A stretch of DNA of 64,000 bases, from positions 248,001 to 312,000 of the forward strand of contig NZ_JAKRWF010000002.1 in the NCBI RefSeq assembly GCF_022352215.1, given 5' to 3'. The stretch is from Flavihumibacter cheonanensis (GTDB lineage: Bacteria > Bacteroidota > Bacteroidia > Chitinophagales > Chitinophagaceae). Below are positions 1,740 through 58,439 of the stretch, one piece after another. A model generated the notes under the pieces. The model made no database searches. It was not told where the DNA came from and saw nothing but the letters and a program-made list of their open reading frames with translations. The position numbers and the translations under genes were made by a program. Each line of letters begins with the position of its first letter. Within the stretch, counting starts at the first letter, position 1.

Positions 1740-3129
1740 TTTTCTCTCCCTTGACCATATTAACCAGGGTCTGAATAATAATTTGAAGGTCTAACCAGAA
1801 GGTCCAGTTTTCAAGATACCAGACATCATGCTCAACCCTTTTTTTCATTAAATAGGAATCGCGTGTTTCACCACGATATCCGTTTACCTGCGCCCATCCG
1901 GTAATACCAGGTTTAACCAGATGCCGCATCATGTAATTTTCAATACTTTCTTTTGACTGCAGGTTCAGCGGAACCGGGTGGGGTCTTGGACCAACAACAG
2001 ACATGGTACCAATCAATACATTGAAGAATTGCGGTAGCTCATCCAGGTTGGTCTTGCGTAGAAATGCACCAATCTTTGTAATCCTGGGATCGTTTCTTTT
2101 GGCTTGCTGATAAACACCTTTTTCATCCACATCAGCACTGGTAGGCACCATGGATCTGAACTTGTAACAGATGATGGGTTTATTGTTTAATCCCCATCTT
2201 TCCTGGCGGAATAAAGCCGGTCCCTTTGAACTTAAACGGATAAGCAGTGCGATGATCGGAAACAACCAGCTCAGAACTAATACAATCACCAACGAGGAGA
2301 ATACTATATCAAAAGCACGTTTGATGATTTTGTTATCCATCAAATCAAGTGGTAAGGATCTAAGTGTGATGATAGGCATTGATCCCATCGTGCTTACCCT
2401 GATTTTACCTGTACTAAAGCGTTGGTATTGTGGAATGATCTTCACTCTTTTTCCTTCCCGCTCGCCGGCAATAATGATTTTCTCCAGCTGAGAATCATCC
2501 TTAAGGGTAGTTGCAACTACGATGTCTTCAAACTCATGACTCGCAATTACTTTATCGATATCAGATGTTTTACCCAGATACTGTCCATTAATAGAGGGAT
2601 TAACCGTATCATCCACAAACCCTGCTAATGAGTAACCATAGAGGTTGTCTTTTACATAGTTTTTGTAAAACTGTAATCCGGAATCATCAGCGCCAACAAT
2701 TAATACTTTTCTGCTCATCTGGCTGCTGTTGCGGATCCTTTTCATAAAGAGCCGGATGGCCAGTTTTTGAATCGGGAAACTGATGAAGATAAGCGTGACC
2801 TGCGTCAGCAATTGCATCATCCGGAAAGGATAACCATTCACCAATAAGGTTAAAACAAATGAAATGATCAGGGAATACAATAGCAGGCTCTTGACGAAAA
2901 CCGTCCATTCAATGGAAAATACAATAGCACGAAAATCTTTGTAAAGGCCCATTGATCGTCCGGCTATAAACCAGCTAAACAGACTGAGACCCAAAGCTAA
3001 CCAGCTGGTGTTTGATAATACATCAATTCCTGGTTGAAAATAGCTGTGGGTAATAAAATAAATGACTGAAAGAAAGCCCAGGTCCGCCGAAATTTTAAGA
3101 CGGGTGGAAGGATTGTAAGTACTTGGCAT
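1729..3129 (-). CDS. WcaJ-type undecaprenyl-phosphate sugar phosphotransferase
   Basis: This 466-residue membrane enzyme is a polyprenyl glycosylphosphotransferase, which starts repeat-unit synthesis by moving a sugar-1-phosphate from a nucleotide sugar to undecaprenyl phosphate. Four to five hydrophobic segments occupy about residues 15-125, a Rossmann-like CoA-binding region begins at [11 protein letters not shown] (141), and the bacterial sugar transferase domain runs from about 266 to the end. The domain carries KFRSM (323), the catalytic-type DELPQ (D363, E364) and VGPRP (379-383). Length and domain order match long WcaJ/PssY-type proteins. It is the only initiating transferase in the cluster. 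The sugar (commonly glucose or galactose) cannot be read from sequence. Confidence 0.92.
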
Positions 3130-54602: not shown

Positions 54603-54631
54603 TCACCCGTCCGGTGCCACCGGACGGGTGA
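54603..54631. repeat. GC-rich palindrome, copy 2
   Basis: A perfect 29-bp palindrome with 14-bp arms and a central C at 54617, in the opposite central orientation to copy 1 (C versus G). The outermost pair is T-A, where the other copies have C-G, so pairing is preserved by a compensatory difference. It separates the TIGR02757 gene (stop 54638) from the small ORF start (54597). Confidence 0.88.
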
Positions 54632-56579: not shown

Positions 56580-58439
56580 TTATGTAGCGAATAAAGTCCC
56601 GAGGACCAGTACCCTCCAATCATATACCTGGCTGGCACCTGTGCCTTCAATGGGCCGGTCAAGATAGCGCTTTTGGAAGATTCCCCGATCAACCAGCAGT
56701 TCCCGGGCAGCAAAGATCTTTTGCTTCACCCGCGCATCCTGCATCCAGGTTGCCTGGGGAGGTTCATAGCCTATTTTTCGTTTTTGCCATACGATCGAGG
56801 CAGGCAGCTGCTCTTTCATAGCATCGCGCAACACCCACTTGGTATAACCGTTCTGCATCTTTTGCCGGGAAGGAAGTCCTGCCGCCAATTCCATAACATT
56901 ATGTTGCAGATACGGCAGGCGGATTTCTCTCCCGAATGCCATGCTGTTGCGATCCGCATAACGTAGCAATTCAGGAAGCCGGCCCATGGTCAGATCAAAA
57001 TATAATATATCCTGCAGAGAGGTTACAAGTGGTTTATATAGTTGTTCCTTGCGGAAACCTGCTTCCAGATAGGCAGCATCTACAAAAGGAATGCGCTCCA
57101 CAGCAGCCACCTGTTTTTTAATCAGTTGCTCCTGCGCCACTTGTGGAAACCAGGCAGCAAAGCGATTTTTCCATCCCCAGCCTCCCTTCCAGCCATGCGC
57201 TGTAAAAGCTTCCAGTTCCCTTTTGAAATCAGATCGGGGACCGGTTCTCCAAAGCTCCTGCAGGAACCAGTGAATATAGGAGTCATATCCTCCTAGTAGC
57301 TCATCTGCACCCTGACCATCTAATAAAACAGTCACGCCCTCGCTGGCTGCCAGTTCCATCACCTGAAATTGTACCAGTGCACTGGCTGATTCCACCGGCA
57401 TTTCCTGGTGATAGAGCATCCGATCCAGGTTTCTTAATAGATCCTCTACTGTTGGCGTACAGGTAACAGATCGAATGCCCAACTGACTGGTTAGCTCTTT
57501 TATCAACCCCGATTCATCTTTCTCGAATCCGGGAAATACGGCTGAAAAACCGGTCCAGTTTTCTGCACCCAATTCTTTCACCAGGCAGGCTATGGAAGAG
57601 CTGTCTAGTCCTCCACTGAGGGAAGACCCTACCGGAACATCTGATCGTAACCGTTTCCGGATGGATTCCTTCAGCAGGGCACGAAATCCACCCGTCCGGT
57701 GGCACCGGACGGGTGGCACCGGACGGGTGGAGTGAAGATCCCAATAGCGTTCAGTTTCCAATTGCCCCCATATCCCATTGCCAATTTTCAACAGGGCCCG
57801 ATGAGCCGGTGGCAGTTGAACTATATCCTGGTAAAAACTTTGTTCAGGGTGAAGAGGGATGCCCGTGACACCGGCACCCAAATAGAGTAACACCTGGTGT
57901 GGATCCGGATTTTTTGGTACGCCAACTGCCCAAAGCGCTTTCATTTCAGAAGCAAAAAGGAATCGCCCTTCCTGCCAGGTAAAAAACAAGGGCTTTTCTC
58001 CCATCCGGTCGCGGGCCAGGAACAACTCAGCCTTTTCCGTATCCCAAATGGCGAAAGCAAACATCCCATCAAACTGTTCCACACAAGATGCCCCGTATTC
58101 CTGGTAGGCCGCCAGTATCACTTCCGTATCAGAGGCTGTGTCAAATCGGTAACCCTGTGCCAGTAAGGATTCACGTAACTCTTTAAAGTTGTAAATCTCT
58201 CCATTATAGATAATGGTAAACCGGTTGCCATACTGCATAGGTTGAGCAGCAGCAGGAGAAACATCGATAACTGATAATCGCCGGTGGCCAAAATAAACCT
58301 GATTGCTGTCGTCCTTCCAAAAGCCTTCACCATCCGGGCCACGATGCGCCAGGGCTGTTGTCATTTCATGAATCTCGCGGATCTGTTTGTCCGGCTCCGC
58401 AGAGCAAGTTTCTGTTATGATGCCGGCTATTCCACACAT
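56580..58439 (-). CDS. asnB: Asparagine synthetase (glutamine-hydrolysing), with palindrome insertion
   Basis: This 619-residue enzyme converts aspartate to asparagine using glutamine and ATP. The glutaminase domain starts MCGIAGI with nucleophile C2; the synthetase domain contains the PP-loop SGGLDSSS (275-282). The start is ATG 58439, because Cys must follow Met. Between these two domains, after ERYWDLHS, residues 238-251 (TRPVPPVRCHRTGG) are encoded entirely by a copy of a GC-rich palindrome (57688-57730), read in frame, in what should be the loop between domains. The normal enzyme has a short linker there, so activity may be kept. The gene is the first of a block shared with the cystathionine enzyme (14 bp gap). 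Confidence 0.94.
   Translation of the reverse strand: MCGIAGIITETCSAEPDKQIREIHEMTTALAHRGPDGEGFWKDDSNQVYFGHRRLSVIDVSPAAAQPMQYGNRFTIIYNGEIYNFKELRESLLAQGYRFDTASDTEVILAAYQEYGASCVEQFDGMFAFAIWDTEKAELFLARDRMGEKPLFFTWQEGRFLFASEMKALWAVGVPKNPDPHQVLLYLGAGVTGIPLHPEQSFYQDIVQLPPAHRALLKIGNGIWGQLETERYWDLHSTRPVPPVRCHRTGGFRALLKESIRKRLRSDVPVGSSLSGGLDSSSIACLVKELGAENWTGFSAVFPGFEKDESGLIKELTSQLGIRSVTCTPTVEDLLRNLDRMLYHQEMPVESASALVQFQVMELAASEGVTVLLDGQGADELLGGYDSYIHWFLQELWRTGPRSDFKRELEAFTAHGWKGGWGWKNRFAAWFPQVAQEQLIKKQVAAVERIPFVDAAYLEAGFRKEQLYKPLVTSLQDILYFDLTMGRLPELLRYADRNSMAFGREIRLPYLQHNVMELAAGLPSRQKMQNGYTKWVLRDAMKEQLPASIVWQKRKIGYEPPQATWMQDARVKQKIFAARELLVDRGIFQKRYLDRPIEGTGASQVYDWRVLVLGTLFAT
57688..57730. repeat. GC-rich palindrome, copy 3, inside asnB
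   Basis: A 29-bp palindrome (57688-57716, G centre at 57702) followed directly by a second 14-bp right arm (57717-57730), so one arm is present twice in tandem. It lies inside the asparagine synthetase gene and is translated in frame. Core and arms match the copies at 54227 and 54603 base for base, apart from the outermost positions. Confidence 0.88.

Follow-up and report, generated by a model that had tools for sequence, protein, structure and literature searches.

The window analyzed here, a stretch of 64,000 nucleotides from the genome of Flavihumibacter cheonanensis, carries on its reverse strand a gene for asparagine synthetase (AsnB, numbered from the ATG at 58439 that opens MCGIAG) whose residues 238 to 251 (TRPVPPVRCHRTGG) are encoded by an array of short palindromic units. 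The array measures 41 bp (57689 to 57729) and consists of three 13-bp units with 1-bp spacers (Table 1), starting at the third base of codon 237 and ending at the first base of codon 251. The first-pass annotation had described a palindrome translated as these residues; that the segment is in frame and coding stands, whereas the simple palindrome gives way to the larger, three-unit array. Its placement of a dispersed, mobile-type palindrome in the interdomain linker was borne out, since the array is flanked by the Pfam domains GATase_7 (residues 52 to 170) and Asn_synthase (252 to 608). The solved AsnB of Escherichia coli (1ct9) aligns in two domains (22 to 171 and 252 to 390) that leave the stretch between them, and 7ylz aligns in one long run that includes it. 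When the array is folded as single-stranded DNA, units 1 and 3 are predicted to pair and unit 2 to form a small hairpin of its own, with the variable base that defines the dialects described below at the center of a 5-base loop (one strand, -27.5 kcal/mol and z of -7.2; the other, -23.3 kcal/mol and z of -5.7).

Table 1. Repeat units and the features that hold them, in positions of the window
Feature	Position	Strand
asnB, 619 aa from ATG at 58439, array at residues 238-251	56580..58439	-
asnB unit 1 (CACCCGTCCGGTG, T dialect)	57689..57701	+
asnB unit 2	57703..57715	-
asnB unit 3	57717..57729	-
Two-unit intergenic array, 9 bp past a stop codon	54229..54255	.
Two-unit intergenic array	54604..54630	.

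The arm CACCCGTCCGGTG has seven exact matches in the window and eight with at most two mismatches, compared to 0.64 expected from shuffles, and none of 100 shuffles of the window reached eight. The two further copies that had been noted outside genes are the intergenic arrays of Table 1, and both do lie outside called genes. In the whole genome (G000; 4.84 Mb), 69 forward and 83 reverse arms were found with at most one mismatch (reversed control, 0 and 1), along with 49 inverted pairs with at most two, so that the genome-wide search proposed as a check on the element returned many more copies. The unit is a near-palindrome of 13 bp, CACC-CG(T/A)CC-GGTG, repeated with 1-bp spacers mostly in groups of two or three. 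Our catalogue, seeded with T-dialect patterns from the places listed (100 of the 152 arms) and cross-checked by a pair search open to both dialects (50 of 73 pairs listed), holds 56 arrays of at least two units, or 129 units. By gene calls based on a home-made codon score, 28 arrays lie between tandem genes, 13 between divergent and 8 between convergent genes, 6 in called genes and 1 over a gene end. The repeat is therefore multicopy and mostly extragenic, as in a REPtron, with 49 of the 56 arrays clear of called genes; where the intergenic arrays are not between divergent genes, 33 of 36 have a stop codon no more than 11 bp away. Matches within two mismatches occurred in four of 294 genomes of a family sample, all from this genus, and with the unit opened to several dialects, 10 of the 15 genomes of the genus matched (2 to 130 pairs each; controls, 0).

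Arrays lie wholly within the reading frame, which they keep, in five predicted proteins, so that these qualify as intragenic REPs of predicted translation: AsnB, MnmE, a serine-hydrolase/polysaccharide-deacetylase fusion, a nitrilase-like protein, and a NagA-like amidohydrolase. Three of these designations (MnmE, NagA, and nitrilase) are ones we presume, with support from Pfam domains. The fusion shares the residues STRPVPPVRCHRTGG with AsnB and carries them between its two domains; in MnmE, the array sits in the G domain after NQVDK; and the nitrilase-like and NagA-like proteins carry mosaic inserts. Of the six in-gene arrays, two occupy the extreme 3' end of their gene. Comparison with outgroups covered AsnB and MnmE, the fusion was compared with G294 alone, and the nitrilase-like and NagA-like proteins with none. 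G294 is identical (100% over 2,562 bp) to Flavihumibacter fluminis RY-1, and we refer to it by that name.

An alignment of AsnB orthologues had been suggested as a check on the in-frame palindrome, and it upheld the proposal. Among 13 orthologues of the genus (no full one was recovered from G008 or G301), nine lack the array and have other, unrelated residues there, within a linker that runs from YWD to the synthetase helix over the same length as in F. cheonanensis; the array therefore stands in place of native residues. At the same site, three units each are found in F. cheonanensis, F. fluminis (one unit mismatched), and G300, whose AsnB is 6 aa longer there, and G299 retains a probable remnant, which argues that the array is not recent. 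MnmE was aligned for 13 genomes (14 found; G272 was left out). F. cheonanensis has three T units, G008 has four of the A type, the first base being altered in two of them, and G300 has four units, two with a C/G center; F. fluminis has native-like residues with a remnant, and G299 and eight others lack the array, which replaces native residues with a net gain of 5 aa. By these alignments, the arrays in AsnB and MnmE are old, and each occupies the position of native residues of a loop. A rule of three units for coding arrays, which fits three of three pure mid-gene arrays of F. cheonanensis, was rejected on the four units in MnmE of G008 and G300; three units are also found in 14 of the 50 other arrays of F. 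cheonanensis.

The arrays of related genomes speak different dialects. They are told apart at position 7 of the unit, where 121 of 127 units of F. cheonanensis have T, and A was found in 31 of 33 of F. fluminis, in 58 of 58 examined in G008, and in 11 of 11 examined in G300. These counts omit units whose orientation is ambiguous, such as those with C9 changed to G (2 of 129 units in F. cheonanensis; in G300, the C/G-centered ones). After position 7, the first position varies most (T in 11 of 127 units of F. cheonanensis). Of the 50 pairs listed from the 73 in the search open to both dialects, 48 were T/T, one A/A, and one mixed, and 2 of the 56 arrays mix T and A units (C110:1828087 and C164:472203). 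With A in G300 as well, the T dialect is derived in F. cheonanensis.

This difference is found at orthologous sites. With both flanks present, 20 of the 56 arrays could be aligned with F. fluminis and 15 with G008, the latter comparison covering the loci of 30 of the 75 places found and the locus of a RAYT-like gene described below. Both F. cheonanensis and F. fluminis carry units at 11 of the 20 sites, nine of them T versus A (two partly conserved), one A/A, and one T/T; two of the remaining sites are cleanly empty, six hold other GC-rich sequence, and one is degenerate in both. With G008, 14 of the 15 sites are T versus A and one has a different palindrome. The two intergenic sites of the window illustrate the range: the first (54229) is cleanly empty in F. 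fluminis and holds three A units in G008, and the second (54604) holds one A unit plus another palindromic unit in F. fluminis and two A units in G008. Flank identity at T-versus-A sites is 0.87 to 0.93 with F. fluminis and 0.81 to 0.89 with G008. One array (C110:1858827) matches its counterpart (L178) in its three units and their spacers and almost entirely in its flanks, with little but the center bases different; most other shared sites also vary in how many units they hold, how these are oriented, or which spacers join them, with the flanks kept. The T-versus-A change also occurs within coding sequence, in AsnB and MnmE. Existing copies, coding ones included, thus appear from these comparisons to have been rewritten in place. 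Over approximately 11 kb, identity is 90.7% between F. cheonanensis and F. fluminis, 86.0% between F. cheonanensis and G008, and 86.7% between F. fluminis and G008. A tree of MnmE joined F. fluminis with G008 (support of 0.87), against the flank identities; we read this conflict as recombination, with interspecies exchange adding noise.

The palindrome in asnB is no orphan, since a RAYT-like gene is flanked by the same arrays. F. cheonanensis encodes one close HUH/Y1-type protein of 191 aa (C110:1861531-1862106), with one array 67 bp before the gene and another 3 bp after it. Its motifs are intact (NHYH and YIHRNP), and on these and its profile matches we place it in the RAYT family, with both profile scores below the curated cut-offs (Pfam Y1_Tnp, E of 2.8e-4 and 21.4 bits, cut-off of 23; NCBIfam REP_Tyr_transpos, E of 4e-14 and 52.6 bits, cut-off of 80). 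Compared to G008, dN is 0.113 and dS is 1.371, indicating purifying selection, which fits activity. Close homologues (43 to 80%) occur in 7 further genomes of 15, and distant ones (approximately 30%) in several; in a family sample of 147 genomes, 4 had hits at an E of ≤1e-30. All eight close loci of the genus, one of which is a pseudogene, are bordered on either side by unit arrays (some mismatches allowed) and have the same two neighbor genes.

Gene and repeat largely go together. The seven genomes with an intact close RAYT have 6 to 130 unit pairs each, G296 has a stop codon within its copy and no pairs under the pattern searched, and four genomes without a close RAYT (G231, G295, G297, and G179) have none. 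Pairs were also counted in three genomes where no close RAYT was found: F. fluminis (19 pairs), G301 (55% complete; 9 pairs), and G299 (2 pairs). At the RAYT locus of F. fluminis, the segment between the flanking arrays is missing and a single array is left, which suggests that arrays do recombine. In G296 (L137), the units flanking the RAYT are of another dialect, with C or G at the center (CACCCGCCGGGTA); C/G-centered units are also found in MnmE of G300. In another genus of the family, a RAYT homologue of 43% (L198) is flanked on either side by hairpins (ACCTGACAGGT, AGACCTGACAGGTT; L198:1374-1452 and 2059-2136). This locus suggests a wider Bacteroidota class with the unit ACCTGWCAGGT, and the general unit may be ACC(C/T)G(A/T)C(A/G)GGT.

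RAYT/TnpA_REP genes with their cognate REP, BIME, or REPIN repeats make up the systems known as REPtrons (PMC2817692, PMC3116915, PMC6006769, and PMC8266576, as far as the available text of each goes). Like these, the Flavihumibacter system comprises many-copy short palindromes, mostly intergenic and often in inverted pairs, an HUH/Y1 gene set between copies of its cognate repeat, and a RAYT and repeat that covary between species. Unlike the REPtrons in those texts, its 13-bp units follow at a fixed 14-bp step, the dialect has changed in place, and the arrays have no GTAG/GTGG foot outside: none was present at the 112 ends of the F. cheonanensis arrays, which are therefore not canonical REPs, and GTGG arises only within arrays where the spacer is G. 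In the portion of PMC6006769 available, REPs without GTAG/GTGG are described for TnpA_REP subclass 2.6 and class 3. Subclass 2.6 (RAYT group 5) shares with our system a Bacteroidota host, atypical flanking structures without GT[AG]G, and an SS motif after the Y motif; the host is placed there through its genus mate F. fluminis, and its arrays have no GTAG. We nonetheless rejected membership in this subclass on motif features, which in the same partial source are NH[LIV]H, YIH[QN]NP, and a median HuH-Y distance of 82, compared to NHYH, YIHRNP, and 64 in all eight close RAYTs read (seven of the genus and one of another genus; the G296 pseudogene was left out).

Palindromic repeats in frame in protein genes are likewise a feature of Rickettsia RPE, CGTC REPs, and intragenic REPs, according to the available part of PMC3733652. 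The translated palindrome is accordingly less new than the first-pass annotation supposed, as REPs within genes and CGTC-type REPs of Bacteroidetes are already in print there. CGTC REPs are described in that text as having no dedicated transposase, stems of 8 to 9 bp, and CGTC at one end, whereas here CGTC is central, is replaced by CGAC in relatives, and comes with a RAYT; the arrays were therefore assigned to neither Rickettsia RPE nor CGTC REPs. A closer precedent for the dialects is the REP orthoswitch of Pseudomonas and Stenotrophomonas, in which orthologous RAYTs of related strains are, as here, flanked by different REP variants (PMC3686654, in part). In the model given in the available text, old REPs stay and decay as the new variant multiplies, with partial replacement mentioned as possible; here, in contrast, the old sites themselves bear the new variant.

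We therefore favor a reading, with a probability of roughly 0.7, in which the palindrome belongs to a REPtron-type REP array with its RAYT and the content of arrays is exchanged among old sites. What the sequences show is a repeat family with RAYT linkage and in-frame copies, which are old and occupy the place of native residues in AsnB and MnmE, and orthologous sites at which unit number, orientation, spacer, and center base change with the flanks staying. That RAYT-dependent exchange between arrays causes the rewriting we infer from association. TnpA_REP of E. coli cuts and joins REPs on single strands in vitro (PMC8266576, partial text). By the same token, the Flavihumibacter RAYT could cut and rejoin arrays on single strands or, alternatively, nick them and so trigger gene conversion between them. 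Sites would then be fixed and their content fluid, and a new dialect, once established in the F. cheonanensis lineage, would spread over existing sites, including coding ones. Within genes, content would survive only if it preserved the reading frame and lay in a loop able to tolerate it. Several observations weigh against this reading: units without a close RAYT in F. fluminis, G301, and G299; a RAYT that scores below curated cut-offs; other GC-rich sequence at 6 of 20 sites in F. fluminis; the native-like residues and remnant in MnmE of F. fluminis, with the conflicting MnmE tree; the missing GTAG/GTGG foot; and the two mixed arrays among 56.

Those two mixed arrays (C110:1828087 and C164:472203) could instead be intermediates of a process in which new T REPs were inserted into or beside old A REPs and the old ones were then lost, through target preference and deletion. 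Such a process would also leave sites stable and content fluid, and REPs are known as targets of insertion elements (PMC3733652, in part). However, several switched sites have flanks preserved down to single bases, and few arrays combine the two dialects, so we regard this explanation as unlikely.

The near-identical pair of arrays at C110:1858827 and L178, with little but center bases changed, would suit a different explanation, in which the units are binding sites of a DNA-binding protein (a regulator, nucleoid, or uptake factor) and every site moved from A to T by ordinary mutation and selection after the specificity of the protein shifted. The T and A consensus sequences do differ at one position only, and for sites that differ by the center base alone, the chief rival to exchange is selection exerted through such a protein. 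Point substitution fails, however, at most shared sites, where unit number, orientation, or spacers change; strong selection would be needed on each unit at dozens of sites, including coding ones; and the gene that tracks the repeats is a RAYT. As an account of the whole, we consider it quite improbable.

Homologous import of T tracts into the F. cheonanensis lineage from a T-dialect relative is very unlikely. The two same-dialect sites shared with F. fluminis do look imported, in that no other of the 20 aligned sites has flanks as similar (T/T, 0.97; A/A, 0.94), as imported tracts would show, but the switched sites have the ordinary divergence given above over whole flanks, and import merely shifts the switch to another lineage. 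Least credible is that the arrays are intrinsic terminators or 3' stabilizing hairpins, with the AsnB copy a chance coding use: their closeness to stop codons would fit, but by eye no T run follows the two intergenic copies of the window on either strand, 13 arrays lie between divergent genes and five predicted genes carry arrays within, and RAYT linkage and dialects are left unexplained, so that this may be a secondary use at most.

We see even odds that a RAYT/REP system after a specificity shift acts as a genome-wide find and replace on existing repeat sites and, as some of these lie in genes, edits the amino acids of several host proteins in a concerted way. The literature already describes REPs and RAYTs, REPs within genes, and orthoswitches; the unexpected part is the dialect change in place. 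A search of open-licence literature for in-place rewriting at orthologous sites, including coding ones, found the orthoswitch and no description of such rewriting. A 1988 title by Higgins reportedly asks about evolution by gene conversion. In the available parts of PMC3686654, PMC3116915, PMC8049555, and PMC8266576, searched for in-place REP change, concerted evolution, and gene conversion, the orthoswitch was likewise what was found. Literature searches with the exact unit strings returned no relevant-looking paper, and those for other in-frame palindromes or Flavihumibacter returned known cases or nothing relevant. How REPs spread and how RAYTs act on them is an unsettled question. Here, shared sites are written in different dialects in closely related species, of which one lacks a RAYT at the old locus, and there are in-gene repeats that keep the frame, so that the competing models (new copies and decay, in-place exchange, and site-by-site selection) become directly testable. 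The findings suggest that proteins encoded at several loci can be changed jointly by one repeat system, and they bring into RAYT/REP biology both Flavihumibacter and a GTAG-free type of 13-bp unit.

Minor features of the arrays and their surroundings were also observed. By raw count, CT is frequent in the four bases just outside the F. cheonanensis arrays: among the 12 commonest 4-mers, those with CT (CCTT, CCCT, ACTC, GCTT, TCCT, and ACTT) account for 37 of 112 ends. TnpA_REP enzymes are reported in the available text of PMC8266576 to cut at C|T, and CT at the outer ends may mark candidate cut sites. A second, longer, and uneven palindromic unit type (approximately CACTCCGCCNNGGCGGAGTG) is chained to the 13-bp units by a 1-bp spacer, also within genes (L123:2540-2620 and 3020-3080, L125:2485, L148:10826, and L187). 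Sought as an exact symmetrical family (CACTCCGCC..GGCGGAGTG), it was found in none of the 15 genomes and was rejected as such, its copies being uneven. The top 10-mer and 12-mer lists from 400 kb of F. fluminis held no further palindrome family. Another dispersed short repeat, TCTCACGTCTGACGTCTCAC, adjoins the array at C186:412026, where its length differs between F. cheonanensis and F. fluminis. It was seen just past the array (L112 and L094) and in F. fluminis stretches L148 to L167, and a count of this repeat by TCTCACGTCTCA gave 11 copies, both strands together, in 400 kb of F. fluminis.
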